Origin: a virus
Length of the DNA stretch: 49,261 bases
Virus record (IMG/VR): IMGVR_UViG_3300028840_001533
Coordinates: 1-49,261 of that record
Strand: one strand, 5' to 3'
Position numbers and translations under genes: made by a program. The notes under the pieces were generated by a model that did not search any database, had not been told where the DNA came from, and saw nothing but the letters and a program-made list of their open reading frames with translations. Numbering within the stretch: the stretch's first letter is position 1; each line of letters starts with the position of its first letter. Below are positions 1,603 to 43,300 of the stretch, piece by piece.

Positions 1603-1610
1603 TTTTTCTC

Positions 1611-1838: not shown

Positions 1839-1869
1839 CGGCTCGAATCGGAGGTTCAGCCCGGTGATC

Positions 1870-5169: not shown

Positions 5170-8100
5170 TAACGACCACCTCTCTTCTTATAGCTCATTA
5201 TCCCGCCGCCCCAGTTGAATGACCTGTTGATAGCGCCCTGAATATCAAGAGAAAATTGTACCCCGCTTACACGGTGCTTCGTCCTTCGTTGCCTTTTCCC
5301 AGAAGAAAGAGAAGACGCCTTTGATTCCCTGATATTCCTTCCAAGTTGCTGCGCCCTGAGCCTCACCAAAAGCTCTTGCTCTGGATCAACACATGAGAAA
5401 ACGTGATGGATTGTATCCGCCGTAGACACCTCAAGGCCAGCAGGAGTAATCCACCCTGTCCTCAAGTGGATCCCAATTGGAACCCCGTCATCGTCGTAGC
5501 TCGCGCTATCGTCGTCATATTTCTGCGAAAAGAATACGCAGTTCTGAAGACCCATCAGCATCTCAGATTGCCCCGACGAAAACGATGCCAGTGTTACATC
5601 ATCGGAGTACGAGTCAAGCCTTTTAAGCTCGCCAAGTGATATGTCATCAGTAAGCGTGATTTGCGCCCCTGTTACAAAGTTCCATGAAGACGGAAGATTA
5701 ACCTTCCAGCATGGCCACGGATATCCCTGGTCAGTTGATATTACGATCCCGCTATTCACAAATCCAGACTTCGTGGGATAGAAGAACCACACCAGCTTGC
5801 GCTTGTTATCCACCATCCCCCACGCTCTACCAAGTTTGTTTAGGTCGATGTCGTCTTGAATGAGACGACGGATATTTCTTCCCCCGTCAAGCGGCGCGAC
5901 ACCGTCGTACATATAGACTCCGCCATCACGGGCGAGGTAAATCTGTCGTCCATCAAAATTGCGGAGAACGGAGTTTGGTGAACACGGTCCAGAGATACCA
6001 GCTTTGGATAACTCAAATCTGAAGGGGGCTGAGACATTAAGAAATTCAGTTTGGGAAATTGCATGATAGATTGCATCCTCTTTATAGATCGCTACCTGGA
6101 GAGCAGAAATCTCATTCATGGAAATGATTTTTCCAGGTGTGTCAGTCAATAACACAAACTGGAAATCATCCTCGCCCCAAGAGCGATCAGGGTCATTCCA
6201 CCCGCCAACTGAAACCTCCGACCCTGTCCCAGATGGGTCATTTGCAAGCACAACCCTGTTGGCGGCAACAGCAATACACTTAGCCTTTGGCGCGAGGTCT
6301 CCAAGTGCTGAGCCATTCGTTGGGTTGGCAACATAGTTTGGATCATCTATCGTCATCTCGCCAAGGCGACGAGCAAACCCCCCAGGCATATCTGGGTGAT
6401 AAATCAGCGGGTAACACTGCCCGTTTGTCCCAATCAGATATGTCTCACCACTGGCCTCAAAGGTCCTGAAGACCCAGGGGTGATCTCCGTAAACTCCGTC
6501 TATGCTGACACCAGACACATAGCTGGTATCGTCAGGGTACGAAGACAGCGGCGGGATATCTGCATCATACCCAGTCCCGGCACCGCCATCATTCCAGTCT
6601 CCATCCGAGCCACCAGCATTGTCACCATCAACTGTTTCAGTATCGCTTGCTGTTATTCGTGTCCAGAGATTGGTGTCTCTATCAAGCCTTGCCCATGCTT
6701 TCGTTGTGCCGAGAATAACCGTATCATCCTCGTCATCCATGTTTGCCTGGAAAACAGTTGTTGCGCTACCAAGCGCGCCGCCGCCCTGAGAGTTAGGAGC
6801 AAGGTACGCTTTTGGATGATCGTATTCTTTGTAAACCGGATTCCAGTCATCATAACTACAGTGGCCAAACAGGAAAACTCTCCCATCAGTATCATTGATT
6901 GAGAGTCTCCACTGAGTCCAGTGCATAAAGCTGACCATCGGCTCACCGTCTGGCCAAGCATCAGACGCTTCCTTCTCATCAATGTAATGCTCGTCAGCAA
7001 TGAATCGCATCCACGTAGCACCGCCATCAACACTTGTGAGAAGATTCGGGAACCTGTAAAACGGGTACTCAGATTTCCCTGTGTACGCCAAAGCCATCAA
7101 CGAGCTTTCTGTTCTAACATACGTTATAACTTGGCCGCCCCAAGTATCAACCGGAGTATACTTTAAGGATGAATCAATGAAGCCAGTGCTATCAAGGTAG
7201 ATCTCTGCTTCAAAATCTTGGCCAGACGCCGATATCAAAAAGATGCACTTGCTTCCAGCTGCATCAACACCGCCATCAAAAACGGCTGTCCCAAATCTAG
7301 AGCTTGCTACACCGCCTACTGGATATGGGTTATACGAATTTGAAACCATCAACTTCGACACGCCGCTATCAAGATCAATGTTGTACGTGCTTCCGTCCCA
7401 TTCAATTGGATAAGCTGTCAACCATTGCTCAACATATGAATTTGCTGGCGCAGTTGTATCGTACGCACATGGGACAACGTACCAATTGCCACACAGCCCA
7501 CCTGGGCTGATTAGCCTGTTAGCTGTAGACTCAACAAAATCAGTCCCATCTGGGATGATGTTCTCTTTCGTCCACGGCCCACTTGCAGCAGTAATGTCGT
7601 ACACAACCCATACAACCAGGCTTGAATTGTCAGCAATGATCAACGCATCGTGTTCGTAGTCATATTGATAATGCAAAAACAGGCCATTGGGATTCATGTC
7701 CGTCATGCCTGTTGCAAGCGTTTCCCAGGTCAGCGACGAAGGAAGGGTTGATACCGGCGCTCTGTAAAGCGCAGAACCATCTGTCGAAGCAAACAGGTAA
7801 CCATCAACCTCGAACATCCAGTCAGGCGTTCGTGTCCCGCCATCAACTTTGTCAAGCGCCACGTCGTAAGACCAGTTTTGCCCGCCATCAACTGACATGG
7901 CCCACTTGTCTCCATTGTATGAAGTTGAATCCACGTACGCAGCAAGCATGACACCATTTGATGTTTCAACGAAGGCTGTTCCCCTGCGATCATACCCCAC
8001 GTTTCCTGCGTCATAAACTTCCTGGTACTGAGGAACAAGCTGTCTCCCCCCAACTGGGTCATCAATCTCCTTTGTAAGCGACGGCCTTGGACGAATGGTG

Positions 8101-8225
8101 CCGTCAAAAAACAGACAGTTGTCTCCTATCGACGCCATCTCTCCTGTCTGGACAAGCCTGTTCACATCGTTTCTAACCCCGCTTGACGGCACCGGGAACG
8201 GGACTTTCTCTTTCTTGTTTGCCAT
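5169..8225 (-). CDS. Tail nozzle-like protein with Asp-box repeats
   Basis: The protein has 1018 residues. The C-terminal third (about 690-880) carries a pattern seen in T7 gp12/P22 gp10-type nozzle and stabilisation proteins: a RFELSKAGISGPCSPNSV stretch, then IYLARDGGVYMYDG, then DLNKLGRAWGMVD and LVWFFYP. The N-terminal region holds Asp-box motifs of the S-x-D-x-G-x-x-W type at about 111-118 (SVDGGQNW) and 396-404 (SVDGGATW), as in sialidase-type beta-propellers. It is therefore likely a propeller-based tail tube tip with an extra propeller that may bind glycans. Between the adaptor and this gene lie two appendage genes. The length is greater than T7 gp12 (about 790), consistent with inserted blades. 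Confidence 0.75.
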   Translation of the reverse strand: MANKKEKVPFPVPSSGVRNDVNRLVQTGEMASIGDNCLFFDGTIRPRPSLTKEIDDPVGGRQLVPQYQEVYDAGNVGYDRRGTAFVETSNGVMLAAYVDSTSYNGDKWAMSVDGGQNWSYDVALDKVDGGTRTPDWMFEVDGYLFASTDGSALYRAPVSTLPSSLTWETLATGMTDMNPNGLFLHYQYDYEHDALIIADNSSLVVWVVYDITAASGPWTKENIIPDGTDFVESTANRLISPGGLCGNWYVVPCAYDTTAPANSYVEQWLTAYPIEWDGSTYNIDLDSGVSKLMVSNSYNPYPVGGVASSRFGTAVFDGGVDAAGSKCIFLISASGQDFEAEIYLDSTGFIDSSLKYTPVDTWGGQVITYVRTESSLMALAYTGKSEYPFYRFPNLLTSVDGGATWMRFIADEHYIDEKEASDAWPDGEPMVSFMHWTQWRLSINDTDGRVFLFGHCSYDDWNPVYKEYDHPKAYLAPNSQGGGALGSATTVFQANMDDEDDTVILGTTKAWARLDRDTNLWTRITASDTETVDGDNAGGSDGDWNDGGAGTGYDADIPPLSSYPDDTSYVSGVSIDGVYGDHPWVFRTFEASGETYLIGTNGQCYPLIYHPDMPGGFARRLGEMTIDDPNYVANPTNGSALGDLAPKAKCIAVAANRVVLANDPSGTGSEVSVGGWNDPDRSWGEDDFQFVLLTDTPGKIISMNEISALQVAIYKEDAIYHAISQTEFLNVSAPFRFELSKAGISGPCSPNSVLRNFDGRQIYLARDGGVYMYDGVAPLDGGRNIRRLIQDDIDLNKLGRAWGMVDNKRKLVWFFYPTKSGFVNSGIVISTDQGYPWPCWKVNLPSSWNFVTGAQITLTDDISLGELKRLDSYSDDVTLASFSSGQSEMLMGLQNCVFFSQKYDDDSASYDDDGVPIGIHLRTGWITPAGLEVSTADTIHHVFSCVDPEQELLVRLRAQQLGRNIRESKASSLSSGKRQRRTKHRVSGVQFSLDIQGAINRSFNWGGGIMSYKKRGGR

Positions 8226-9388
8226 CAGGCAACCCTTTCCATGTCAACGTAGAAGTCCATCCCACGACTTCCACCCTTGATTGTATGGACTGGAACAAGC
8301 GCAAAGTATGGAGCGCTGATCCTTTGTGTTCCCCCTTTTGAAACGAGGTAAAACGTTGACATGCCAGTTGGAGCACTATTGACTTGCAGCGGCCACGCCA
8401 TCAGCCAACTTTTATACGGCTCGACACCTGGATCAGCGTTCTCGAACGCCCACCACGTTTCATTCTGCAATGAAAATGCCGGGAATTTTTTAATGCCGCT
8501 GCTATGAAGAACAAACACTTCCATCTTCGGAGCGACGCCCTCTTCAAAGTTTAATGGAACAGTGTTGGTAAGCGATCCATCAGTCATTCGCCAGCTAAGG
8601 CTGATTTTATAGATGCCAGGAGTTGGCAACTCAAAAGTTTGCTCATACTCAAGAATGTGAAGCTCGTCCCCAGGAAGGTCGCCGTACTTTTTCCAATTTA
8701 TTAACTGGTCGTCATCAAGCGCAGATCTGACTCTATGCTTGTAAAACATCCCAACTTCAGTTTGGGTTCCAGCAAGCTGGATCGGAGTAATGTCACCAGA
8801 ACCATCTGTCCGCCATAGTGTCCCAGCTGCTGCAAGAATGTTTTCATCTGGGTGCCCAGTGACATCTGTAAGCTCTTCCCAAGTTTCAACCCCATTAGTT
8901 GAAGAGTCATTACCAAGCACCCAGGTCTTATCTGGACCAACCTTTACGCACAAGCCGCTTATGTTTGTTCCAGCAGAAATTTCCACATCTTCAAGATCAG
9001 TGAGGGCAACTGTAACGGTTTCCTCGAAGTCAATTACCTTAGACCAAGTACTCCCACTTACATGCTCCCAAAGCTGAATGCTTGAATCAACTTGAACTAA
9101 ACGCACCCTGCGGTTGCTGTCAGAAAACTCAATACCGACAGCCCTGCCAGCCTGTGACGATTTCCCAGCAGTAGAAAACCTCATCATGCTCCATGAGCCA
9201 TCAGCCGCCACAGTCCCAAAGATTGCATCAGAAATCACCGTACTCATTGGGATTCCAAAAATCTCACCAATGGCATACTCAAGCTCTGTATGCGCTTCAA
9301 CGAGACCTTTACCATCATGTATTTTCCCAAGAATACGCGCCTTGTCGAGCAGCGGTTCAATGTTTACATGACCGTCAATAGCCATCAT
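8225..9388 (-). CDS. Tail appendage protein, paralogue 1
   Basis: The 387-residue protein shares its N-terminal motif with the next gene upstream: ELEYAIGEIFGIP here and QLEADLEDIFGIP there, each followed by a DAIFG/NYIFG turn. It also shares a C-terminal jelly-roll-like pattern (GIYKISLSWRMTDGS here, GIYEFSLWYVTSDGD there) and an ending with FY-V-R. The two are a tandem duplication with strongly diverged middles. They are probably tail appendages or short fibres using a common attachment helix, by inference. The ATG (preceded by another ATG codon) overlaps the upstream stop as ATGA. Confidence 0.65.
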   Translation of the reverse strand: MMAIDGHVNIEPLLDKARILGKIHDGKGLVEAHTELEYAIGEIFGIPMSTVISDAIFGTVAADGSWSMMRFSTAGKSSQAGRAVGIEFSDSNRRVRLVQVDSSIQLWEHVSGSTWSKVIDFEETVTVALTDLEDVEISAGTNISGLCVKVGPDKTWVLGNDSSTNGVETWEELTDVTGHPDENILAAAGTLWRTDGSGDITPIQLAGTQTEVGMFYKHRVRSALDDDQLINWKKYGDLPGDELHILEYEQTFELPTPGIYKISLSWRMTDGSLTNTVPLNFEEGVAPKMEVFVLHSSGIKKFPAFSLQNETWWAFENADPGVEPYKSWLMAWPLQVNSAPTGMSTFYLVSKGGTQRISAPYFALVPVHTIKGGSRGMDFYVDMERVA

Positions 9389-20040: not shown

Positions 20041-20367
20041 CATGTGTTCCATTCGCGCAACTCCTTTGTTCCCTTGCACTTGGGGGCCACGAGCACGGTG
20101 AGACGGAACACATGGGCCAACCCTTGTGTTCCAGGTAAGGGGGCCTCTAAGTGCCTTGTCTCACAGTAGGTTAGGAAAGTGAGCGGCTCAAGTGGAACAG
20201 GTGGAACAGATCCACGACCCAAGTCCAGTGCGTGCACTGGGGTTGACCCCCCCCTTACATATGTTCCACTTGTTCCGCCGATGGAGAGAATCAAGGGGCA
20301 AACCCCCCAGTTCCAAGTACTTAGCTCCCCGTTCCCCTGGAACACAAGCCCTTCCCCTTATGTTCCA
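20041..20367. repeat. Iterated GTTCC/GGAAC boxes with nested inverted repeats
   Basis: GTTCC occurs at 20046, 20068, 20128, 20263, 20272, 20310, 20331 and 20362; GGAAC at 20105, 20194, 20203 and 20339. Strong pairs are 20105-20112 with 20125-20132 (8 bp), 20194-20208 with 20262-20276 (15 positions, one G-T pair) and 20338-20344 with 20361-20367 (7 bp). Inside the second lies a perfect 7-bp hairpin (20225-20231 with 20234-20240). The boxes could be binding sites for the small terminase or another phage protein, or parts of a folded RNA. Confidence 0.75.
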
Positions 20368-20929: not shown

Positions 20930-20958
20930 TTGACGGAAACCCAATAAAGACTTACCTT
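20930..20958 (+). promoter_or_regulatory. Early promoter of the plus-strand arm
   Basis: TTGACG (20930-20935) and TACCTT (20953-20958) are separated by 17 bases. Transcription would start near 20965, which is one reason for preferring the antirestriction start at 21026 over the in-frame ATG at 20966. Confidence 0.55.
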
Positions 20959-21025
20959 GTAGCTCATGACGACGAACCATCAACCGGCTGAAACAGCCCA
21001 AATCACTGATGGGAAAGGGGTTATC

Positions 21026-21901
21026 ATGGCGAACAAGTTCCACACAGAGGCAGCGCAACAGGCGGCGGACGAGATCCTGAAGGCCTTCCAGGATCCAGAC
21101 TCGTTGCCGGAGAAGCTCGGCAACGTCGTGCTCCACTCCGGTGGCGCACACAGCGCCCGCTACAGCTTCGGCAACCAGTTCCTGGTATTCATTCGAGGCT
21201 ACAGCGACGCCGCTGGGTACAAGCAGTGGCTCAAGTACGGTCGGCAGGTCCGCAAGGGTGAGAAGGCCTTTCCGATCCTGGCCCCGGTGAAGCGCACGTT
21301 CACCGACCGGGACGACGAGGGCAACGAGACCAAGCGCTCGTTCATCGCCGGGTGGAAAGACGTGAAGGTCTTCGGCCTGGAACAGACCGACATCGTGGAC
21401 GAGGAGAAGTGGGAGAAGTTCCAGGGCCTCGACGCCGAAGCCCGTGAGACCGTCGCCAAGGTCGAGTCCTCGCCCTTCGCCGAGGTGGCCCACAGCTGGG
21501 GCCTCGCCTGGACGGCCAACGGTCGGCTCATCGACATCGGCGCTGCGGGCTGCTACACACATGGCAAGGGCATCGAGTTGGCCGTGGCCAATCTCTCCAC
21601 CGCTGCCCACGAACTCGTCCACGCCGCCGACGACAAGCTCGGCACCATCACAAAGCGCTACGGCCAGCAGCCCGACAACGAGCTTGTGGCCGAGCTTGGC
21701 GGGGCCATCTGCCTGTGGGCCATGGGCCTGAAGGCGGACGCCGACCTGGGTGGGTGCTGGGAGTACATCAGCGGCTACGAGAAGGGCGACACACTCGCCG
21801 CTGCTAACAAGCTCCTCAATCGGACCCTCGCCGCCGTGGCCGCAATCCTCGCTTGCCTCGACGGCGACGCGCCCCCCTGGGCCGCTGAAGAAGCGGCCTA
21901 G
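21026..21901 (+). CDS. ArdC-like antirestriction/zincin protein
   Basis: The 291-residue protein combines an N-terminal region with the ArdC-type phrase WLKYGRQVRKGEKAFPILAP (about 69-88) and a C-terminal zincin with HELVHA (H195, E196, H199) and a downstream acidic site (ELVAELGG, about E223). ArdC proteins bind single-stranded DNA and protect entering DNA from host restriction; related domains are also seen as metallopeptidases. As the first early gene it would be expressed at once after entry. The start at 21026 has an AAAGGGG site. The in-frame ATG at 20966 lies at the predicted transcript start and has no ribosome site. Confidence 0.8.
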   Translation: MANKFHTEAAQQAADEILKAFQDPDSLPEKLGNVVLHSGGAHSARYSFGNQFLVFIRGYSDAAGYKQWLKYGRQVRKGEKAFPILAPVKRTFTDRDDEGNETKRSFIAGWKDVKVFGLEQTDIVDEEKWEKFQGLDAEARETVAKVESSPFAEVAHSWGLAWTANGRLIDIGAAGCYTHGKGIELAVANLSTAAHELVHAADDKLGTITKRYGQQPDNELVAELGGAICLWAMGLKADADLGGCWEYISGYEKGDTLAAANKLLNRTLAAVAAILACLDGDAPPWAAEEAA

Positions 21902-21986
21902 CCTCGGACCCCGCAGCGGCCCCCCTCCGCAAGGACGGGGGCCGGTGCGCGGCCTGGAGCCGTAGCTAACACCCTAGGAGGCCATC
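21902..21986 (+). ncRNA. Intergenic structured element, copy 1
   Basis: The element fills the whole gap between two genes. A conserved head (CGGACCCCGCAG) is followed by a hairpin in which CGCA pairs with TGCG, then a G-G mismatch, then CGGCCCCC pairs with GGGGGCCG. A second hairpin (CGGC-CTGGA-GCCG) leads to TAGCTAAC and the SD site. Copy 2 has the same plan with a different inner stem. Confidence 0.6.
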
Positions 21987-22595
21987 ATGGCAGACATCAG
22001 CATCCACAACGTGACGGAGGTCAAAGCGGAGAAGATCCGGGAGCTTTCGTTCCCCTGTGAGACCCAGGTCCTTGTAATCCACAGCGACAGCGGCAAGGAC
22101 GAGGTCACGCTCTTCTCGAAGCGCGGAACAACCCTTCCGCGATTCTACGACGAGGACGACATGGACCGGGCCAAGTCGAACACCGCCATGAACGAGACAC
22201 TACGCAACACCATCGACTTCGAGCACAGTGCCAGGGGCCAGATCACCGGCCACGTCCAGGCCCTCTACGACGACCTGGACGACTGGGCACCGGGTCCCGA
22301 CGACTCCAAGCGCCTGATGTCCGACGCCCTGGAAGCGTGGTTGGACCTCGCCAACGGTACAACCGTTGCTGAGGCCGTCCACCGGGCCCAGGCCCACCGG
22401 GCGAATCTCCGCGCCGTGGCCCACGAGTGGGAGCAGTGGGAGGACGCCAATCAGGCCGAGTTGGCCATCTGCCACGCCCTGACCCAAGCGTTCTACCTGT
22501 GGACCTACCGGGCGACCAATCCCCGGTTCTTTAACGCCTTCGCCGCCGCCCTTCACGGCCTCGGCTGGGGCCAGGGCCTGCTGGCCAGCCGGTAG
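21987..22595 (+). CDS. Hypothetical early protein
   Basis: The 202-residue protein has a beta-rich N-terminal third (REL-FPCETQVLVIHSDSGKDEVTLF) and a helical, Trp/Ala-rich remainder (AVHRAQAHRANLRAVAHEWE). No TM segment or known motif was seen. It is preceded by an AGGAGG site and bounded on both sides by copies of the intergenic element. Codon use is strongly GC-biased at third positions, like its neighbours. The function is unknown; early position after an antirestriction gene suggests host takeover. Confidence 0.7.
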   Translation: MADISIHNVTEVKAEKIRELSFPCETQVLVIHSDSGKDEVTLFSKRGTTLPRFYDEDDMDRAKSNTAMNETLRNTIDFEHSARGQITGHVQALYDDLDDWAPGPDDSKRLMSDALEAWLDLANGTTVAEAVHRAQAHRANLRAVAHEWEQWEDANQAELAICHALTQAFYLWTYRATNPRFFNAFAAALHGLGWGQGLLASR

Positions 22596-22675
22596 CACCG
22601 GACCCCGCAGAGGTGGCCCCCCGCTGGGCCACCTGTGCGCGGCCTGGAGCCGTAGCTAACCCTGGGAGGAACGAC
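22596..22675 (+). ncRNA. Intergenic structured element, copy 2
   Basis: The head CGGACCCCGCAG and the tail beginning TGCGCGGCCTGGAGCCG are shared exactly with copy 1, with 25 identical bases in the tail. The inner stem differs: AGGTGGCCC pairs with GGGCCACCT over nine bases. The outer CGCA/TGCG pairing and the G-G mismatch are kept. Pairing is preserved where sequence is not. Confidence 0.6.
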
Positions 22676-23122
22676 ATGAGTACATTGACCAAGTTCAAGG
22701 AGATGGACGGAGACGACCGTGAGACGATCCTGCGCTTTAGCCCGCTGACCAGCTGGCCCCGGTGGCGCAAAGAGACAGCTGACCGGATTCGCCGCGAGCG
22801 TAACAAGTTCCGGGATGTCGTGGCCAAGATCCGCGAGGAGCGGCCCGACTACGATCCCGGCCCCGACTTCGCCAAGTTCGTCCGCGAGCATTGCCGGGAG
22901 TTCCTGAAGAACACGCCGCCGAAGCCGACCCGCGCCAACATCTGGGCCGCAATGAAGTCCCACGCCCGCGCCGCTGGGATGGCCTCGTCCAGGATGGGTG
23001 AGTGGGACACCGAGTACTACAGCGCCTGCGGCCACGACGACTACCTTGCCGAGGTCGCCTGGGATCATCGCGTGTCGGCCATCGCCTGCGGTCGCGACTG
23101 GTGCCGCCTGACGCACCGCTGA
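22676..23122 (+). CDS. Hypothetical early protein, helical and basic
   Basis: This is a 148-residue protein with a basic helix-rich middle (RWRKETADRIRRERNKFRDV) and three Cys near the C-terminus (YYSACGHDD...AIACGRDWC). The Cys/His content could bind a metal, but no standard spacing is present. The start at 22676 has a GGGAGGA site. It sits in the cassette of genes separated by structured intergenic elements. Confidence 0.65.
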   Translation: MSTLTKFKEMDGDDRETILRFSPLTSWPRWRKETADRIRRERNKFRDVVAKIREERPDYDPGPDFAKFVREHCREFLKNTPPKPTRANIWAAMKSHARAAGMASSRMGEWDTEYYSACGHDDYLAEVAWDHRVSAIACGRDWCRLTHR

Positions 23123-23208
23123 GGCCTTCGGACTTCGCCCCTAGGGCCAGGGTACCCCTGGCCCCTGGGGCGCAGCCTGCGGGCAATCTGAGCGCATTGG
23201 AGTACATC
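23123..23208 (+). ncRNA. Intergenic structured element, copy 3
   Basis: After a CGGACTTCGCC head, CGCCCC pairs with GGGGCG and, past a small internal loop, GGGCCAGGG pairs with CCCTGGCCC around a 3-base loop. The tail GCGCAGCCTG-(C)-GGGCAATCTGAGC is shared with copy 4. It ends in the SD region of the next gene. Confidence 0.6.
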
Positions 23209-23607
23209 ATGATCAAAGCCAAGCGGTTCGTTCCATACTCGGTCCTCTCGTCCACGCTGTGGGCCATGGATCGGGCGATCCCTCACGCCTCAATCATCGG
23301 CCTGAGTGAGCGCGGCGTGAAGTTTGCGAGGGCCATGCGTGACACCTTGGAGGAGTACTGGGAGACCGAGACCCCGGAGCGGGTCGTCATGGATGACCAG
23401 GACAGCAGGAACTGGGCCTCTAGCCACTCTCCGCTCTCACGCGGCGCGTCCGTCTCAGGCCTGTACCTCGGCCTGACCGGCCCTGACGCGGCCCAACTCA
23501 AGCGCCTCGTCCACCTCGTCCGCAAGAGCAACCTCTACTCGGACTCCCGGCATCACAACTCGATGCTCGCCGCCGAGCAGTGGTTCGACCTTCTGATCAG
23601 CGTCTGA
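23209..23607 (+). CDS. Hypothetical early protein
   Basis: The 132-residue protein reads ASIIGLSERGVKFARAMRDT in its first half and DAAQLKRLVHLVRKSNLYSD in the second, with no recognised motif. It begins at 23209 behind TTGGAG; the longer ORF in this frame would read through the intergenic element. It lies between copies 3 and 4 of that element. Confidence 0.65.
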   Translation: MIKAKRFVPYSVLSSTLWAMDRAIPHASIIGLSERGVKFARAMRDTLEEYWETETPERVVMDDQDSRNWASSHSPLSRGASVSGLYLGLTGPDAAQLKRLVHLVRKSNLYSDSRHHNSMLAAEQWFDLLISV

Positions 23608-23693
23608 GGCCTCGGACTCCGCCGCTAGGGGGTAGGGTAGCCTGCCCCCCGGCGGCGCAGCCTGAGGGCAATCTGAGCGCAAAGGAGGTCATC
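23608..23693 (+). ncRNA. Intergenic structured element, copy 4
   Basis: The stem has CCGCCG paired with CGGCGG, then GGGGGTAGG paired with CCTGCCCCC (one G-T pair) around a 4-base loop. The helix lengths equal those of copy 3, but most bases differ. The tail is nearly identical to copy 3 and ends in AAAGGAGG. Confidence 0.6.
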
Positions 23694-23900
23694 ATGGGAT
23701 GGATCGCAGAGGTCAGGACCGGAGGAGACGAGTGGAGCCGCAACGCGTGCGTCTTCGAGACCGAGGACGAGGCGACGCGAGCGGGCGAGGAGTTGGCTGG
23801 CCGGTGGCTCCTCGTCACGGAGTGGCGGGCGACCGAGGTGGACGAGCCTGCCAACTATGTTTTCAAAGCCAACGCCGACCGGCCTGGGAGGATCGAGTAA
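23694..23900 (+). CDS. Small hypothetical early protein
   Basis: The 68-residue protein opens MGWIAEVRTGGDEW and continues ACVFETEDEATRAGEELAGR, a compact alpha/beta pattern seen in many small phage early proteins. It has an AAAGGAGG site. Its stop overlaps the next start as TAATG. The function is unknown. Confidence 0.65.
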   Translation: MGWIAEVRTGGDEWSRNACVFETEDEATRAGEELAGRWLLVTEWRATEVDEPANYVFKANADRPGRIE

Positions 23901-24286
23901 TGATGCTGCAAGCGCCGCCCGAACACTGGAGCGATCACAACGCAAGCCCCTGGGGTTGCATCTGGGAGATCGCCGACGGCGACATGGCCGTGGCGACCGC
24001 CCAGTACATGGTGCTCGACCGCCCCGAGGGTGGCACCATGAAGCTCTGGACGCCCCGCGAGCACCAGATCGAGTGCAAGCGTCTCGTCGAGCTTGACATG
24101 AAAGTCAACGCTCACATACCGGACAAGCTCCGCTCTGTGAGACTCAGCAGTGGTAAACTCTCAGCCTATGCCATGCGACTCAAAGGCATCGCGTCGAGGC
24201 TGGCCAAGCTCACAGCGCACATCGACTTCGTCGAGTGCGCCAATGAACCGGCTGACCAGGACTTCATCGACTGGCTTCTCAGCTGA
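23900..24286 (+). CDS. Hypothetical early protein
   Basis: This is a 128-residue protein with an aromatic N-terminus (PPEHWSDHNASPWGCIWEIA) and helical C-terminus (AMRLKGIASRLAKLTAHIDF). It starts by TAATG overlap with the gene before it. It is the last gene of the first early block; a strong promoter follows. No family was recognised. Confidence 0.6.
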   Translation: MMLQAPPEHWSDHNASPWGCIWEIADGDMAVATAQYMVLDRPEGGTMKLWTPREHQIECKRLVELDMKVNAHIPDKLRSVRLSSGKLSAYAMRLKGIASRLAKLTAHIDFVECANEPADQDFIDWLLS

Positions 24287-24325
24287 CGGAATCGGACAGT
24301 TATCGGATCCGGCCAGCGGAAGGGG

Positions 24326-24354
24326 TTGACAAATACGAAGGGAGGGCCTATATT
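24326..24354 (+). promoter_or_regulatory. Near-consensus sigma70 promoter
   Basis: TTGACA (24326-24331) and TATATT (24349-24354) are separated by 17 bases. It drives the ParB-like gene at 24412. The spacer sequence GAAGGGAGGGCC is shared, with one base less, by 19916-19944. Confidence 0.75.
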
Positions 24355-24411
24355 GAAGGGGCGTCGAAAAACGACCGATTACCAACGACCGAACCAGAAA
24401 GGGGCAACAAC

Positions 24412-25215
24412 GTGGCCAAGAAAACAATGAAAGTCGATCCAAAGAAGATCGTCGTCCTGGAGGGCACCTATCCGCGCTCGCGGAATCCTCTGGAGATCGA
24501 AGACGACGCCGCCGCCGAAAAGGCAGTGGCGCACCTGCGCGGGGCCGACTTCCCGCTCATCGTGACCGCCAACGGCGGCACGAACCTCGTGGACGGGGCG
24601 CACCGCCTCACCTCCCTCATCCTCGACGGAGCCAAGGAGATCGAGGTCCAGGACCTGGGCACCCTCAACGCCGACCGGGTCCTCAAAGAGGCCATCAAGC
24701 GCAACGCGACGCACGGGAAGCAGCTGAGCCTCACCGAGAAGGCCCGCCTCGCCCGCAGGCTTGAGGGCACCATGAAGCAGGCCGAGATGGCCAAGGTCTT
24801 CGCCGTTTCCACCCGCACCATTTCCCGGTGGGTGGACGAGGTCAAAGAGGCCCGCCGCATCTCCAAGACCAAGAAGGCCCTCAAGCTCATCGAGAAGGGC
24901 ATGAGCGTCAACGCCGCAGCCAAGGAGATCGAGGAGTCGCGCTCGACCCTCACCGGCTGGCTGAAGCAGGCCGAGGGCGACCCGACCTTCACCGAGCCGA
25001 AGAAGGCCAAAGCCAAGGCCAAGAAGAAGGAGAAGGCCAAAGCCAAGGCCGCTGCCAAGGCCGAGCCGAACGTCGAGGCCAGCGAGGTGGACGACGCGAT
25101 TGACGAGATCGTGCTCGTCGCCTACAACGCCGTCAAGGCCGTCGCCAAGGCCCACGACAAGACCATCGAAGATGTCGGCTTCGAGGTCATCCGGCTTCTC
25201 AACGAGCGCCTGTAG
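24412..25215 (+). CDS. ParB/Srx-like DNA-binding protein with two HTH segments
   Basis: The 267-residue protein begins with a ParB-N-like fold: an early PRSRNPLEI strand and NLVDGAHRLTSLIL (58-71), the ParB/sulfiredoxin loop. Two HTH-like segments follow (about 120-143, EMAKVFAVSTRTISRWVDEV; about 158-185, GMSVNAAAKEIEESRSTLTGW), then a Lys/Ala-rich linker (about 197-218) and a helical tail. It starts at GTG 24412 behind AGAAAGGGG. Such proteins in phages act as transcription regulators, partition-like proteins or nicking nucleases; the catalytic possibility cannot be judged here. A strong promoter and a downstream GC-rich hairpin make it an independent unit. Confidence 0.7.
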   Translation: MAKKTMKVDPKKIVVLEGTYPRSRNPLEIEDDAAAEKAVAHLRGADFPLIVTANGGTNLVDGAHRLTSLILDGAKEIEVQDLGTLNADRVLKEAIKRNATHGKQLSLTEKARLARRLEGTMKQAEMAKVFAVSTRTISRWVDEVKEARRISKTKKALKLIEKGMSVNAAAKEIEESRSTLTGWLKQAEGDPTFTEPKKAKAKAKKKEKAKAKAAAKAEPNVEASEVDDAIDEIVLVAYNAVKAVAKAHDKTIEDVGFEVIRLLNERL

Positions 25216-25237
25216 CTCTCCCTTCAGCTATAGGCTG

Positions 25238-25265
25238 CCCCGCCCCCTGCAAATGGGGGGCGGGG
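25238..25265 (+). terminator. GC-rich terminator-like hairpin
   Basis: CCCCGCCCCC pairs with the GGGGGCGGGG that follows a short loop, and TTCTCCCTTTT comes after. It ends the ParB-like unit. The rest of the gap to 25322 holds a second hairpin (GCGCC-TGC-GGGCGC) and an AAGGGGG site; this order (long stem, short GCGCC stem, SD) resembles the intergenic elements at 21.9-23.7 kb. Confidence 0.65.
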
Positions 25266-25322
25266 TTCTCCCTTTTATGGGGCGAGCGCCTGCGGGCGCT
25301 GGGCCGATGAAAGGGGGCCAAC

Positions 25323-25538: not shown

Positions 25539-25849
25539 GTGAGGAAAGCAGAGAGCACCGCCGAGCCAGAGAGCTTGAATCGCTCCAGGAAACGGCCTCT
25601 GCCATCGTCAACGGCACAGACGGAACCATCATCGCCGAGGTCACAACGCCGCAGGCAGGGACGATCCTGGACGGCGACAAGTACCCTCTCGTGTACAGCA
25701 TCGAGATCGGGGCGCTCGGCACGCACGGCTGGACGATGAACGGCACATACAAAGAGGCGCTGTCCTACCTGAATGGAGCGCAAATGATGATCATGCTGCT
25801 GTCCGAAATGGTTCAGGTTGGGACACATGAGGAAGGAGCGGAAAACTGA
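25535..25849 (+). CDS. Small early protein, paralogue B
   Basis: The 104-residue protein opens with a charged helix (MSEESREHRRARELESLQET) and carries the same C-terminal pattern as the gene before (WTMNGTYKEALSYLNGAQMM). The start at 25535 is chosen for the ATGA overlap; the first in-frame ATG at 25523 has no better site. The function is unknown. Confidence 0.65.
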   Translation: MSEESREHRRARELESLQETASAIVNGTDGTIIAEVTTPQAGTILDGDKYPLVYSIEIGALGTHGWTMNGTYKEALSYLNGAQMMIMLLSEMVQVGTHEEGAEN

Positions 25850-26349
25850 TGTTCAGACTAGGCAACGCCCGGTACCACAACGAGTGGAAGAACCGGCAGG
25901 ATGTCTTCAATGATTTCTTTCCAGAGTGGAAGCAAAACAACGAAGAGGACATGAAGACCTTTCCAGAAGACAGCGCCATCCTCTTCGCGTCGTACGTCCA
26001 TGAGGGCTACGAGGGCGACGCGGTGCTGCTGTTCGTGCGCGAGGGCACCATGTACCTCGTGACCGGCGCTCACTGCTCGTGCAACGGCCTGGAGGAATAC
26101 TACGACCCAGAGCCGACGACCTGGGTCGAGCTTTGGCAGCATCACCAGCTGAAAAACGACAGCTGGAGCGGCCACGGCACCAGGGCTGCTGAGGCATGGA
26201 ACACTATGATCGGCCACAACATCACGTCCCTGGTGGAAATCATTGGCGAGGATGACAACGGCGATCTGACCGTAACCCGCAAGCTGTCCGGTTCCGGCAA
26301 GCGGTACATGCTGGTTCCAGAGGAATTCATCAAGAAGGAGGAAGAATGA
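25849..26349 (+). CDS. Hypothetical early protein
   Basis: This 166-residue acidic protein is rich in Trp, His and Asp (EEYYDPEPTTWVELWQHHQL) and has a central beta stretch (DAVLLFVREGTMYLVTGAHC). The latter part (TSLVEIIGEDDNGDLTVTRK) looks like a beta hairpin. It starts by TGATG overlap and ends by ATGA overlap. No known family. Confidence 0.65.
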   Translation: MFRLGNARYHNEWKNRQDVFNDFFPEWKQNNEEDMKTFPEDSAILFASYVHEGYEGDAVLLFVREGTMYLVTGAHCSCNGLEEYYDPEPTTWVELWQHHQLKNDSWSGHGTRAAEAWNTMIGHNITSLVEIIGEDDNGDLTVTRKLSGSGKRYMLVPEEFIKKEEE

Positions 26350-27956: not shown

Positions 27957-29635
27957 GGATAGAGACCACAACGTCGAGGATCCTGGTGATCGGGACTCCC
28001 TACGAGCAGCGGACGGTCCTGAAGGCGATAGCGGGATCCCGTTGGGACCGGGAGCGACGATGCTGGACATACCCTCTTTCATCCTCCATTGTCCCTGGGC
28101 TACTCTCATTGTATCCGTCTGCACAGATCGACTCAGGAATCAAAGCCTTACTGGAAGCCAGCGAAAAGCAGAGGCTCGCGGCATCGCTGAAGCAATCGTC
28201 AGCCAACTTGCTCGATCCGATACCAAGTACTGTTTTACCACCTTGGGAACACCAGTTACAGTCCTATCATTTTGGGCGGCTGCGTCTCAACTTGGATGGG
28301 GTGCCGATAGGCGGCGGGGCATTACTTGGCCTGGATATGGGGACCGGGAAGACCAAGGTGGTGTACGACTTGATCAGGAATTACCCGAAGATCAGGACGG
28401 TACTGGTCACTTGTCCGAAAACGGTAATCCAAACGTGGGCGGACGAGAGGGAGAAGCACGCGGGGGACACAGACGTAGTCGTCACTCTGCTCGGAGACAG
28501 AGTTACCAGGACTGGCTCCAAAGCGCAATGGCCAATCAAAAAGCGAACGGAAGCAGCCAAGAGATTCTTGGCGGCGTTCCCCAGTTCGAGTTACAGTCGG
28601 GTAATTGTGATCAACCACGAGAGCGTCTGGAGGGAACCCTTCAGGACCCTCGTCAAGTCGAGGATCTGGGATCTTCTAGTGATGGACGAGTGCCACCGAG
28701 CGAAAGCGCCTGGGGGGAAGCTGTCCATGTTCTTGGCCAAATCAGTCGGGCAATATGCTTGCAGGCTGGGCTTGACTGGGACCCCGATGCCGAAGGATCC
28801 GATGGACATCTACGCTCAAGCGAGGTTCCTGGATCCGGGGATATACGGAACATCCTTCACGGAATTCAAAGCTCGATACGGCATCTTCGGTGGCTTCGAG
28901 AACAGGAAATTCTTGAGACTCAACAACGAGGAGGAGTTCAAGGAGAAGCTCGACAGCCTGATGATTCGAGTGATGGCCGACGATGTGCTGGACTTGCCGA
29001 AACGACATCACATCATCCGTACTACTGTCCTCGATGCGGAGGAATCACGTATCTACAATTCAATGAAGCGGGATCTAATAGCCCAGCTGAAATCTGGTGT
29101 GGTTACTGCGGCAAACAGCTTGGTCAAGCTGGTCCGCCTGCAACAGATCACACAGGGGACGGTCCACGATGAAGACGGACGCTATCACCGAATCGGGTTC
29201 TCAAAGCAAAAGCTACTCGAAGAAGTGCTTGAGGATCTGCATCCCGACGAGCCAGTCTGTATCTTCGCGAATTATACAGATGATCTCAGTCGAATTCGCG
29301 AAACCTGTGAGGCTCTCGGACGCAGGAGTTTGGAGCTATCTGGCAAGGTTGATGAACTGGCCGACTGGAAAGCTGGCAAAGCTCCGATACTTGCAGTCCA
29401 GTATAAGTCGGGTGGAGTTGGAGTGGATTTCTCTCGGTCCCGCTACACCATCTACTACTCACCCACCTTTGATATGGGAGATTACGAACAATCAATCAAA
29501 CGAACCCATCGACCCGGACAAACTCGAACAACCTTTTACATCCACCTTCGAGTGAAAGGAACCATCGACGTAGACATCTCGCGTGCCCTACGTCAGAAGA
29601 AAGACATTGTGGAAGGGGCGTTAGCAGGAATATGA
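27947..29635 (+). CDS. SNF2-type superfamily 2 helicase
   Basis: The 562-residue protein has Walker A DMGTGKT (130-136), motif II DECH (247-250), motif III TGTP (277-280), and a second RecA domain ending in SGGVGVDF and RTHRPGQTR (about 525-533), the SNF2/RapA motif VI. A short N-terminal domain (SRWDRERRCWTYPL) resembles the HARP-like fold of SMARCAL1-type annealing helicases. It is likely a replication or fork-remodelling motor using ATP. No good ribosome site is seen, so it is probably coupled to the regulator gene it overlaps. Confidence 0.85.
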   Translation: MGIRIETTTSRILVIGTPYEQRTVLKAIAGSRWDRERRCWTYPLSSSIVPGLLSLYPSAQIDSGIKALLEASEKQRLAASLKQSSANLLDPIPSTVLPPWEHQLQSYHFGRLRLNLDGVPIGGGALLGLDMGTGKTKVVYDLIRNYPKIRTVLVTCPKTVIQTWADEREKHAGDTDVVVTLLGDRVTRTGSKAQWPIKKRTEAAKRFLAAFPSSSYSRVIVINHESVWREPFRTLVKSRIWDLLVMDECHRAKAPGGKLSMFLAKSVGQYACRLGLTGTPMPKDPMDIYAQARFLDPGIYGTSFTEFKARYGIFGGFENRKFLRLNNEEEFKEKLDSLMIRVMADDVLDLPKRHHIIRTTVLDAEESRIYNSMKRDLIAQLKSGVVTAANSLVKLVRLQQITQGTVHDEDGRYHRIGFSKQKLLEEVLEDLHPDEPVCIFANYTDDLSRIRETCEALGRRSLELSGKVDELADWKAGKAPILAVQYKSGGVGVDFSRSRYTIYYSPTFDMGDYEQSIKRTHRPGQTRTTFYIHLRVKGTIDVDISRALRQKKDIVEGALAGI

Positions 29636-30048
29636 GTGACTATGAAAAGTTTGTGAAGCTGCACATCAAAAGGGACAAGCTCAAAGAAAAGCTTGCCAAA
29701 ATCAACGCCGACATCGAGAAGAGCGAGGAGGTGATGCTGAAAAAAATGGTGGACGATGGACTGGCCAGCGCGAAGACCCCGTTTGGCACGCTTGGGATCA
29801 ACAGGATCGTTCGCGCCTCTGCCGGTGGCAACATGCCTGCCCTGGTAGATGCAATGAAGAGGGCTGGGAAGGAGGATATGGTCAAGGATACGGTCAATGG
29901 AACATCGCTGGGTGCCTGGGTCAGGGAGTTTGACCCAGACAATAACCTGTCGCCTGAGCAAATTGAGCGCAAGCTTCCCAAGGAGCTACAAGGCGTCATT
30001 AAAATCACCGAACAAACAACCATCAGAGTTACAGGGAAAAAGGGGTAA
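29632..30048 (+). CDS. Hypothetical replication-module protein
   Basis: The 138-residue protein begins with a coiled coil (KRDKLKEKLAKINADIEKSE) and ends with LPKELQGVIKITEQTTIRV. It is linked by ATGA to the helicase and by a 3-base gap to the next gene. Similar small proteins accompany phage helicases; it may be a helicase or ssDNA-binding partner. Unproven. Confidence 0.6.
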   Translation: MSDYEKFVKLHIKRDKLKEKLAKINADIEKSEEVMLKKMVDDGLASAKTPFGTLGINRIVRASAGGNMPALVDAMKRAGKEDMVKDTVNGTSLGAWVREFDPDNNLSPEQIERKLPKELQGVIKITEQTTIRVTGKKG

Positions 30049-30795: not shown

Positions 30796-30839
30796 GCCCC
30801 CCGGCTGGGAAAGGTTTCTGGAAAACCCAGTCGGGGGGC
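30796..30839 (+). promoter_or_regulatory. Long hairpin before the primase gene
   Basis: A 14-position stem (GCCCCCCGGCTGGG against CCCAGTCGGGGGGC, one G-T pair) encloses a 16-base loop. No U-run follows, so a simple terminator is unlikely. The strong AGGAGG site of the primase gene follows the hairpin by about 20 bases. Confidence 0.6.
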
Positions 30840-37168: not shown

Positions 37169-37374
37169 GAAAACGAATACTCAATTGGGTTGCTTACCAC
37201 ATTGGTCTGTGGTCCATCCAATTCCGCGAGAATTGGTATCACGTAACGGGGACGTGGTTGTGGGGCATAGCTTCATTCATTGAGAGTCGCCCGCCTGGGC
37301 CTCGTGAGTCTCCTCCTATTGCAGACTCAGGGGAGTGGCACGCATTGATGGATAAGCTTTTTCAGTCAAACTGA
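37165..37374 (+). CDS. Small hypothetical protein, last gene of the plus arm
   Basis: This is a 69-residue, Trp-rich protein (LNWVAYHIGLWSIQFRENWY) with a possible membrane-surface helix. It ends 13 bases inside the end of the giant minus-strand gene, so the two arms converge tail to tail. No clear terminator was seen in this junction. No family was recognised. Confidence 0.5.
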   Translation: MRKRILNWVAYHIGLWSIQFRENWYHVTGTWLWGIASFIESRPPGPRESPPIADSGEWHALMDKLFQSN

Positions 37375-40300
37375 CTGAGCCACGCTTCTCGATACGATTT
37401 ATTGAATCCCTTTCGGATTCTATTCTTGGCATCCGGGTCGTCCGTTTCCCGGATGCCTTTTTGTGCATCTGTGAGCTTCTTGAACAACGGGACCATCCAG
37501 CCATTGTCTTCTTTCCAGTCAGCCAGTTGATCACCTTCGAGGTTCTTGTAAGCCTTCTCACCCTGCTCTAGCCCCTCGATGTTCTCATAGAAAACCGCTG
37601 CTGCCGTGTAGTCTGCAACCTCGCCGTAAATTCTCCGCAAGAAAACGATGTCGTTGGCCTCATACTTTGAGAGGTCGCCACCTGTCATCACGTCTTTCAG
37701 CCACTTGGCATCAGTGAAAAGTCTTGCGCCAGTCTTCGCGCCAGCGCCAGTGTACGCGCCAACGAGGTACTCCAGAGTCTCAGGGTTCTGGTCGATCCAC
37801 CCCGACTCATACTCGTTCCCGCCAGTCCATCGATTCACAAAAGCTGTGAGTTCCCTTGCGATTGGATTAACGCTTTTGAAGTACCGCTGCGAGTCCGGGC
37901 TATGGTCCCACGAGGACCTCACAGGGGCAATCGGAGCGCCGTAGTACGTCTCGTTCACGAACGTGTCTGCAATCGGGGCAAAGGCTGACGGAACCAGCCA
38001 CCTGACGGCTTCCCACTTGCTGTCCAGGCTCGCGCCGCCAAGCGGGTTGAAGGCTGTCATGATCGCGTTGAACAGGTTCGCCGCCCCTTTTGCTGTCCCC
38101 TCTACTGTCGATGTCCCAGACAGGACTGCATGTAACATTGCCTCAAGCTGAGTTCCAACCACATGAAACACGTTATACCCGTAAGGCAGCGGGATTTTAA
38201 TGTGCTGGCCTTCGCCCTCTGGCATCATGACAATCAGGCTGCGCTCCTTCTGCCAGTCTCCGATTTTCTCCCACCAAGGATACCCGTCTTCCTCATCTTC
38301 CCCGCCAATGCCGCGATTGAATGCAGCCAGTGCCCACGATGCCATGATCTGTGCGCCGACCAGCTTTTGAAGCGACTTGTTCTTGGGATTCAGCACAGCT
38401 GACATCATGCGGGCGGTGCCCTGGATCGACGCATTTGCAAACAAGTAAAAAGCGTTCAGCGCCTGCCCTGCGTCACCCTTTTTGTTGAAGTTAACTGTGA
38501 GGTTTCGACCTATCGCCGCTGCCTTCTTACGCGAAACTCCAGCCTTACGAGAGGCAACATAAACGGAAAGGCGCGCAGCATTCTCAACCGAAGAGTTAGC
38601 ACTAGAGACAAGATCGCCTACTTTCTGCGCGTACGAAAACGTGTTGTACACCTTGCTGTTGCCAGCACGTTCTACCTTGCGCTGGATAGATCGCGCTTTT
38701 GTAACCACGTCCGTGTATCCAAAGAACCCGATTTTCCCGCCGTCTGCTACGTACTCATTGTAGTACTTGACCCACTCGTCAGCTGCTACCTCTGCATCTT
38801 CCTTGAACGTGAGTCCCTCTGCTTTGCGGATTGCGTTGATTGCTTTCGGCACATTCAACAGGGTCTCATTCCTCACATGCTTGAGATCCTCTGCTGTCAT
38901 ATTGAAGCCCGCTGTTTGGACATCACGAAGTAGGTTGGCGATTACAAACTCTGGGTTGTACGTTGTGTTGGCAGCTGCCATGAACCTGTTAACGGCAGCG
39001 AATATCCTCACAGCGCTGTGCATCGGCCCTGAGCCAAGGTTCTTCATTGCGGTTGACAGCCTGGAATCAAAGATCTCAATGTAATGAGTCTTGCCATCCT
39101 TCTTGACGGCGACCACGTTGTCCTCGTTATTTGCGAACGCGTCCTTTACAAGCCTCACTGTTCCGGTGCTGCGGTCCCATACCCTGCGCCGCGTGACAGA
39201 GTTCACTTTGTAGAGATTCTCATTCGGAAACTCTTGCACAAGCTCAAGGAATGCTTGACCAACACGATTCTTTTCTGCCCTGACAATGGCTTCCTCGATA
39301 TCCACAACCGCCTGTGCAAGAACTGGACGCGTGTGCTTAGTGTCTCCGACTCTTCCAAAGCTGAACCCAAGCTCATCGCCTCTGATGTCAAAGCCTTGCC
39401 CTGTGTGGATGTTTGCATCCTCTAGGATTTCCTCAAGGTCTCCCTTGAATTCCTTCCCTTTGAGAGGGACGTAGTGCTCGTAGATGCTCACGTTCTCAAG
39501 CTGCTGATCTGTAATCAGCCCAGCCTCATGAAGGATCTTCAACTTCTGATCCATCATGTTATCGAAAAGCCTTGCCACACCATCGAACTTGTTGCCAGCC
39601 TCTTTAAGCACCCCTTCAGCTTGTTCGTTTGTCATGCCTGAGTGCTGGATATTCGGCTTCAGATTCGCTAGATCTTTCTTCCGTCTGTAAAGCCTTCGCT
39701 TCAGTATCGTTGTGTCGTAGTCACGAGATTCAGCATACTCAATCTGGTTTTCGATGTTTGAGATTTCTTTTTCCCACCGCTTCTTCTTCCGGTTGTACCA
39801 AACATCGTCAAGATGAGCGTTGCGTTCCTCTGCGTGCCGTGCGTGCAGCCAGTTTTCAAATTCCTCTATGTTGAAGTTGCCTTCATGCAAGGCGTCGAGC
39901 AATGGATTCACGTACTCGCGCTCGAACGCCTCAACTTGGTCAGCGGCCTTTCCGTGGTACAGCATTTCGTGAAGGTAAGCATCCATGTCTTCGTGGATGT
40001 TCCCGTACCTCTTTTCAATCTCAGTCTGAAGCTGCTTCACGCGATAGAACTTGTCCTGGAATTTGTTAATCAGCCACGACTTCCAGGTTTGGTCAGGTAG
40101 CCCCCAGGCTGGGCCTGATTCTGGGTCGAGGCCAGAAAGCGGCTGGGCCTGATGGAGGTTGTACAACGGTGTACGAAAACCTCGACCCGGAGGGAAGTGG
40201 CCTGGGCCTTCCGAGAACGAATAGTAATTCAGCGAGCCAAGGGGGGCAGTCTTGACAGGCTTCAAACGTATGTCCACAGATTCCGTCGGTCTTCCCTTCG

Positions 40301-43300
40301 AGTCGAGAACTGGTACTTTCTCTTTCGTTCCAGCAAGGTACCCAGCTGCGGAATGCTGCTCTTTTGCAAAATTAATTTCCCGCTTTGAGAGATGCGGCAG
40401 CTTGTACAAGCCTGGGAAGTTGATCTCATGCGGCTCAAGGCGACGGCGATATCGATCCCACTCAAACCACTGCGTCGCGAACAAGCCCATGTTTAGTTCT
40501 TGTGCTCGCTTTGCATTCACAAGCAGCGCGTCCTTGTATGCCTCGGACATCTTCTGAATCGTGATGTCTTTCTCAGGCCCAAGCCACTTGCCTTCAAAGT
40601 TCTTCCAGTGTTCAGGCAGTTTGTGGTTTTTCTCGCCCTTCTTCGTAAGGTAGACAGCGGTTCCAGGCTTCATCTTATCCATGATTGCCTTTACAAAATG
40701 GCCGTCTCCACCTGGACGCATGAACAACTCATCAAAGTTTTTGATTTCGCCTTCCTCTACCCTCGCCTTGATTCTCCCTTCCTTCTTAGCAGCCTTGCTT
40801 TTGTTCCAGTCTTTAATGACCTTCATTTCCCACTCAAGGCGCTCTTGTGGAGTTGGGAAAAGCACCGGCTCATAGATCCGCCCCATGTGACGGTCAACCG
40901 CTGAAATGGCAGCGCCAAGCGGGTCCTGCCAGACAGCAGCGAAGCTGGCCACCTTCGTCGCCATGCCCCTGAATTGTGAGCCAAGGCGCTCAACGTATGT
41001 GTGCCAGGATGTAGGCGACTCAGGGCCACCATCCATGTTCTGCTTCAAGAACCAATCTGGGTCCGACTGATAAAACTGATTCAACTCAGCGATGTTCGTC
41101 ATCTCAGCAGTACCGAGCAGCCCCATCCCGCCGCTCTCTTTTGCTTGGAGATTGAACTCTCTAGAAATCTTCGAGTTGTAATAGTTCCTGTACCACTTAT
41201 CGAATCCGTGCCCTCCAGGCCTGTTCTCCATCAGCCATTCAATCGACCGGGTCTGAGGCTTCGCTTTAATCTTGAGCCTCTTCCGTCGGTCAGTCTCAGC
41301 TGACTTGTATGCTGCCTTGATGAACCTGATTGCTTCCTCGTTGTCAGCATCGTACTTTAAGAATGATTCAGCGTTCCCTGATTCACCCTTTGTGGTATCC
41401 CAGGGAACCCGCTTCGCCCACTCCTTACTTTCCTCGTCGTTCCTCACACGGACGACAGCGTACGAAAGCTCATTCGGTGTGAGCGGCTGGTTGGGACTGA
41501 GCATCGAGAAGATGAAATGGTTCAGAACCTGAAGCGTGTCTTTTGGATCCGGCTGCATGGTACGTACGATCTTGTGGTGGAGATCGCGGTGGATGTCACG
41601 CGGCAAGTTGTACACATCAATGGCCTGATGCTTGAGCCAGAGGATCTCCTCATAGGTGAACGTGCCATCGAGGCCACCTGGAATCTCCACGCCTGGGTAG
41701 ATCTCTACCATCTTGCCCATGCCGCCGAGATTCTTAACCCCGTGCTTTTTACCGAGCGCATTCCAGTCCTCAGTTGTGTACTCGCTGACCAGCTTGTCGG
41801 AATCCTCGATGCCGGTAAAGGAGTAGAACGAATCCATGCCAAGGGCCTTAAAGATCTTTTGGACCTCCTCTAGCTGGTCCGTTCCTTCAGGCAACTCATC
41901 GATTTTCACTATGGGCTTCGTGCCCTCTGTGTCCATTCCGAGTGCCTCAAAAAGACTCTTGGCCTCTTCCGTCAATTTATCTTCTTTACTCAAAAAGTTA
42001 ATGACTTGCTGTAGCTCAGCGTTAACAGCTTTCAACATTGCTGATGTTTTGTCTGCATCCGGGTCCTTGCTGTGAAGCGAATACATGACATCATCCTGTG
42101 CGCGGATGTGCCGCATGGCATCGATCCTGGCACGCTCTGACTCTGTTTCCTCCTCAACATCGAAAACATCATGCACCTTGGTCTCGACTTCCCCTGAGTC
42201 AAGGACATTCGTTGTGGTGATATCGTCGTAGGCCTGCCTCACAGAGTCTTCGTCGAGGCCAAGCTCAGATCGTAGCTCTGCTTCAGAAAGCTCGTACTCT
42301 GTATCTGGGAGCGGATCTAAGTCGCCAAGCATGCCGATATATTGCTCGTCAGTATATCCGGTAGTCTCGAACACTCCGTGCCGGTCTAGCAAAACATCCT
42401 GTGAAAGCACGCCTTCCTGGTAGATGTCGTCATCAGTTGTCCACCAGCTGGGCACATCGCCTTCTTTCCTGCGGGACTTACTATAAAGAGGAATTCTTGT
42501 ATACGCGTCTTTCCCCTTCCAGCCCTTTTCAGCCCTGACGCCGCCAACTCTGTACCCGCCAATCCATAAAGCATCAGGATACATCTCTGAAAAGATGTCG
42601 CGTGCAGCAGCAACCTGCCTGACGCCCATGCTGGTGTAGCGCTTTTTCATGTCTGTAATCAGATCGCCCTTTTTGTCAAAAACCGCTTCAACGTACTCTA
42701 CGTAAACCTCGCGGTCTCGCTGCACACCGTCCCGATCAGCCCAGTAGGAGGAATTCTTATACCTCTCCCTTGTTAGGATGTAGCCAGCTGGCCCGTAATC
42801 ATTTGAAATGACATAGGCCCTTGTGCCTGGGGCACTGTCAACTTCCCAGCCAGACATTACTTCCAAGATCATTCCGTGTTTGTACAGGTGATCTTCGCGC
42901 TCCTCTGCTGTGAGATCCTCGTCAGCCGTTGGATCGACGCTCACAGGGGTGATGTTCAGCGAATACTGGCCCGCAGCTTTCTCTGCAAGCTCATCCTCTT
43001 CCTCGAACAAGGATCGCTGTGCTTCGAGTTGCTCGGCTGTTCTGCCCTCTTCAAAGAGATTTTTCTGCGGCCCAGCAAGGGCCTCTTCCTGGGGGTTCTC
43101 GAACTTCATAAACCGCTTGCCGCCGCTCACAGTCACCCGTGACACATCCCCGTCATTATTGACGTAATGAATCACTCGCTTGCCGCCTTTGGCCTCAGCT
43201 TTGGTGACCGTAACCACCTCATTGTCCACTTCCAGCTGGTCCCCAACCTCAAGCTTGGCAGCGGTGGTCCTAATCATAGGCTCATCGAGCAGGATTTGCG

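Follow-up and report, generated by a model that had tools for sequence, protein, structure and literature searches.

A four-copy family of structured intercistronic elements in one gene run of a phage, probably acting as mRNA punctuation

The window, a virus record of 49,261 bp, carries a family of structured intercistronic elements that is real, non-random, and so far private to it. The elements probably punctuate phage mRNA, a role of a known general type that here takes a new sequence form. Four copies occupy four consecutive gaps (21902-21986, 22596-22675, 23123-23208, and 23608-23693; 85, 80, 86, and 86 nt, respectively), each of which extends exactly from the base after a stop codon to the base before the next start codon. 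The coordinates and the repeat, first noted in a preliminary description of this DNA, were confirmed.

An identical 144-base repeat occurs at both ends of the record, so the window is probably a complete genome. Among the gene products of the phage are an SU10-like capsid protein, a portal with weak similarity to SU10, and a large terminase. A single ORF of 2819 aa with the large polyvalent protein domain LPD38 fills positions 37362-45821 on the minus strand, and the protein encoded at 29632-30048 resembles gp33 of phage Pam3 (DUF7307, 1.2e-15), a possible hint to the relatives of this phage. Adjoining the small terminase gene, a largely non-coding stretch of about 320 bp (20045-20366) contains ten TGTTCC/GGAACA motifs, several of them arranged as TGGAACA/TGTTCCA pairs, and looks like an operator or origin array.

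The hairpins sit in a run of six plus-strand genes (20966-24286), presumably transcribed together as one operon. The first (20966-21901) encodes an ArdC-like antirestriction protein (Pfam ArdcN, 2e-8; phrog_7245 anti-restriction, 6e-12), and its true start is likely the ATG at 21026, which follows GGGAAAGGGG. Genes 2 to 5 encode orphan proteins of 202 aa (21987-22595), 148 aa (22676-23122), 132 aa (23209-23607), and 68 aa (23694-23900) that belong to no Pfam or PHROGs family, and tblastn found no match to these four genes in GenBank phages or plasmids. Gene 6 (23900-24286), which encodes an orphan protein of 128 aa, overlaps gene 5 (TAATG), so this junction has neither a gap nor a hairpin. From their position and the antirestriction gene, the genes of the run are presumed to be early. 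Upstream of the operon we noticed by eye a weak promoter-like pair on the plus strand, TTGACG-17-TACCTT (20930-20958), which is absent from the consensus promoter scan and therefore tentative. A strong sigma70-type promoter, TTGACA-17-TATATT (24326-24354, plus strand), matches 11 of 12 consensus bases and starts the next unit, which encodes a DNA-binding helix-turn-helix (HTH) protein (24412-25215). Across the operon and this next gene (20966-25215) GC3 is 0.80-0.91, and in most other genes it is about 0.60. A foreign origin of the operon, considered because of its high GC, was rejected since the capsid gene has an equally high GC3 (0.83, compared with 0.80-0.87 in the operon). Strong expression, which the GC3 of the operon may reflect, explains it equally well.

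Each gap contains one extended imperfect hairpin of about 60 bases without a bulge. The preliminary description had proposed a head, a long hairpin, and a separate tail hairpin. The head and tail sequences stand, but the tail GCGCRGCCTG is in fact the pairing partner of the CGGACYYCGC head. Scored under a covariance model of the element, copy 1 (21900-21961, plus strand) reaches 71.3 bits, copy 2 (22594-22651) 64.3 bits, copy 3 (23124-23184) 70.4 bits, and copy 4 (23608-23669) 75.6 bits, all in the same orientation. Counted from CGG up to the loop, the arms comprise 24 opposed positions in copies 1, 3, and 4 and 21 in copy 2, and about five weaker outer positions extend them. Read from the bottom, the ungapped stem consists of variable outer pairs, CGG/CUG, A.C, CY/RG, Y.C, CGC/GCG, a variable inner stem, and the loop. 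The loops vary in length from 3 to 6 nt and are not conserved among copies (GCAA in copy 1, 6 nt in copy 2, 3 nt in copy 3, and GUAG in copy 4). All mismatches in the four helices are symmetric, either 1x1 or 2x2; the G.G mismatch described previously as kept does occur in copies 1 and 2, but only there, and the mismatches constant in all four copies are A.C and Y.C. The pattern CGGACYYCGCN{20,50}GCGCRGCCTG has four matches in the window, with 0 expected in shuffles, and each 62-nt hairpin folds well below shuffles (z from -3.2 to -5.0). Of the five most stable 62-nt loci in the genome, these hairpins make up all but one, which lies around a U-tailed terminator at 25237.

Selection on the structure is suggested by compensation between the copies. 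The inner stems of copies 1 to 4 pair at 12/14, 10/11, 12/14, and 13/14 positions with their own partner strand, compared with only 1-9 of 14 (or 3-6 of 11) with the partners of other copies, and sliding the partner strand by one base destroys the pairing. In a test whose structure was derived from these same four copies, which are paralogous, belong to one genome, and form two close pairs, 16 of the 27 pairs changed on both sides (8.0 in shuffles) and 87.7% of cells were paired (68.6% in shuffles), values each reached by none of 500 shuffles. The pattern is thus compensation between copies rather than independent covariation across phages. Along the stem, CY/RG is CC/GG in copies 1 and 2 and CU/AG in copies 3 and 4, and the pair next to CGC/GCG changes from A-U to C-G between the same two groups. 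Copies 1 and 2 are identical at 36 of 36 outer positions and at 11 of 20 inner ones (Fisher p 2e-5), and copies 3 and 4 at 34 of 36 and 11 of 20 (Fisher p 8e-4). The combination of a near-invariant outer part and a divergent inner part suggests that the stem base is read by some factor, with pairing as the only requirement on the upper stem. The earlier proposal that conserved structure with changed sequence reflects selection is supported by this compensation. Copies 1/2 and 3/4 form two closely related, adjacent pairs that share 13-14 more bases beyond the hairpin core. Gene duplication was rejected as the source of the repeat because the flanking proteins are unrelated to each other.

Selection likely acts on RNA. 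All four copies lie in the same orientation, along transcription, and occupy every real gap of the gene run. The hairpins start at the stop codon and end 25, 24, 24, and 24 nt before the next ATG. At the stem base the half-sites differ from each other at three positions, the same three in every copy, and this constant asymmetry means that the element is oriented. Predicted fold energies are about equal on both strands, so energy cannot decide between RNA and DNA. For selection on the RNA, as first suggested, the best indications are orientation, stop-to-SD placement, and half-site asymmetry. Confinement to a single operon, the exact fit of the hairpins between stop codon and ribosome-binding site, and the free upper stem also favor RNA. 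Sequestration of the SD was considered as a common role and rejected, as it is not shared by all four copies.

The hairpins are not plain terminators, in agreement with the preliminary description. No U-run follows them (2-4 T in 15 nt on the plus strand and 1-4 on the minus strand), and the terminator scan did not report them. A canonical U-tailed terminator, GCCCCGCCCCCTGCAAATGGGGGGCGGGGT, lies behind the HTH-protein gene at 25237-25266, which suggests that the phage does use ordinary terminators. Another intergenic hairpin without a U-run, with 14-bp arms and a 16-nt loop, was found at 30796-30839, between a gene ending at 30780 and a primase-like gene at 30874. It was rejected as a member of the family, scoring only 20.3 bits on the minus strand and 11.3 on the plus strand, and its match to Rfam PK-repBA is sub-threshold (26.3 bits, cut-off 45).

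Within the 49-kb phage the covariance model finds exactly four copies, at 64-76 bits, and the next best match has 20.3 bits. Scans of IMG/VR and GTDB with the head/tail pattern, in collections that may omit the record of the window itself and near-identical ones, gave no convincing second carrier; the matches look like chance in coding-like DNA and lack the long paired arms, and those rescored with the covariance model reached at most 24 bits, compared with 64-76 for true copies. A widespread dispersed repeat of the REP/MITE type was rejected, with only four copies in this genome and chance-like matches in these collections. No match was obtained by blastn of the region against GenBank phages or of the elements against plasmids, and no relatives were found in IMG/VR with ArdC, a SNF2 helicase, and the orphan genes as protein queries. 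A TerL search recovered one close relative (L084, 84%), which is only 4.4 kb long and does not include the hairpin region, and four further relatives at 26-27%, all without the element. A covariance search of six GTDB genomes and 299 genomes of one phylum, an insensitive search in which 18-150 candidates were scored per genome, found none. At the elements, no Rfam 15 family scored above its curated cut-off, the only matches being far sub-threshold chance matches to microRNA hairpins.

Among the roles proposed in the preliminary description, processing or translation control appears to fit best because the RNase III sites of phage T7 have the same layout. We predict, with moderate confidence, that the elements are T7-like mRNA processing or insulating hairpins. 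The four would then constitute one family of intercistronic RNA hairpins that punctuates one operon of the phage. Each member is an imperfect helix without bulges, 24-29 positions long, which begins at a stop codon and leaves 24-25 nt free ahead of the following ATG. The helix base, CGG-A-CY-Y-CGC paired with GCG-C-RG-C-CUG and carrying the constant A.C and Y.C, would serve as a fixed recognition module, and double-strandedness would be the sole requirement on the upper helix. A double-strand-specific RNase, most simply host RNase III, may cut at the mismatched base or close to it; a length of about two helical turns is suitable for an RNase III substrate. Cleavage would convert the operon transcript into separate messages with ends protected by hairpins, and each gene of the operon could then be translated independently. 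The analysis shows the predicted fold, the compensation among copies, the layout, and the confinement to one operon; co-transcription of the operon, RNA as the functional strand, the cleavage, and the cutting enzyme are inferred.

The main rival, possible but doubtful, is that the hairpins are not cut and act by insulating translation or stabilizing the mRNA, stopping terminating ribosomes from reaching the next start, blocking 3' exonucleases, and keeping the ribosome-binding site open. A hairpin from the stop codon to 24-25 nt before the ATG leaves just the initiation footprint free, and a role of this sort has been proposed or established for the intergenic stem-loop of phage 7-11 and for the T4 CUUCGG hairpins (PMC8948821). 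The constant A.C and Y.C and the near-invariant base module would, however, be needless for insulation, for which a plain hairpin such as that at 30796-30839 would be enough. We consider it unlikely that the family is instead a new kind of phage RNA element, in which the mismatched base is a dedicated recognition module bound by a protein, encoded by phage or host, that acts on the cistrons in step, while the upper stem diverges fast, with only its pairing mattering. Very improbable are attenuators of transcription, or terminators of a non-canonical type, by which expression would be graded from gene to gene along the operon: a very stable GC-rich hairpin does follow each gene, but a U-run, the mark of an intrinsic terminator, is lacking on both strands, and the terminator scan that passes over these hairpins reports the U-tailed one at 25237-25266 in the same genome. 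An anti-termination RNA like put of phage HK022, or some other RNA acting on RNA polymerase, would share the long mismatched stem with conserved bases near its base, although the likeness is of kind only. There are few put sites, they follow immediately after early promoters, and they consist of two adjacent stem-loops, whereas four elements lie between genes here, making this reading exceedingly improbable.

An element acting at the level of DNA, either a recombination boundary at which gene cassettes were gained or a site recognized by a DNA-binding protein of the phage, is quite unlikely. The adjacent close pairs 1/2 and 3/4, placed directly behind genes with their additional shared bases, do resemble duplicated units, both strands fold alike, and an HTH protein is encoded just downstream. 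Against this, every copy lies between stop codon and SD in one orientation, and the inner stem keeps its pairing despite its variable sequence, which a duplex DNA site would not need. The recurrent difference between the half-sites is unlike a simple dyad for a dimer. The cassette-boundary idea of the preliminary description found no direct support: the flanking genes are not homologous to each other, an integron attC site was rejected because both core boxes, RYYYAAC and GTTRRRY, are absent from every copy, and no recombinase or transposase was called among the larger proteins scanned, bar one PHROG 'integrase' label. That label falls on a protein of 166 aa (25849-26346).

For the preferred reading, mRNA processing, we used the T7 early operon as a yardstick and located by folding the hairpins in the gaps known from the literature to hold its RNase III sites. 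In both phages, a family of hairpins occupies gaps within an operon whose first gene is an antirestriction gene (gene 0.3 in T7), and the T7 sites (R0.3, R0.5, R1, R1.1, and R1.3) likewise combine a common base with a varied apex. The T7 layout of irregular helices of about two turns is found here in four of four real gaps of a presumably early gene run. At R0.3, R0.5, R1, and R1.3 the hairpin end is separated from the following ATG by 16-23 nt, compared with 24-25 nt here, and R0.5 and R1 begin at most 6 nt from the previous stop codon, like the elements described here. The T7 sites differ in having an asymmetric internal loop, whereas the elements have only symmetric mismatches, and in being shorter and less GC-rich. 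There is no sequence kinship, as the covariance model of the element has no match in T7 700-8400. Given the unrelated sequences and differing internal loops, the claim is that the element would work like a T7 R site, not that it is one. If true, an unrelated, SU10-like phage evolved T7-style message punctuation in a sequence code of its own, placing compensated hairpins in every gap of one operon and, in the collections searched, nowhere else. As natural variants that combine a constant base with four different upper stems, the copies are also a ready mutant series for studying recognition by a double-strand RNase or RNA-binding protein.

Several other phage repeats resemble these elements in part. 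The ESAS of cluster K mycobacteriophages are imperfect inverted repeats with a variable spacer upstream of the starts of non-structural genes, with no known function (PMC3203893), and thus, as here, lie upstream of phage start codons. ESAS are 17-bp repeats of conserved sequence tied to a 13-bp GGGATAGGAGCCC beside the start codon, which is absent from all four start regions here, and the arms of the present elements are longer, with an inner half that is variable but compensated. Cluster O mycobacteriophages have 17-bp inverted repeats in many copies, partly intergenic (PMC4351075), which are likewise multi-copy within one phage group but differ in having 7-bp perfect arms, in occurring also inside genes, and in having no tie to start codons. 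In the phiEco32-like phage 7-11 a stable intergenic stem-loop lies upstream of the sigma gene, and the stem-loops of 7-11 and GAP52 and the T4 CUUCGG hairpins share with our elements their stability, intergenic location, and position upstream of genes, with proposed roles in RNA processing or stability (PMC8948821). Those hairpins have short stems and a fixed UUCGG-type loop, whereas in the family described here it is the base of the stem that is conserved and the loops that are not.
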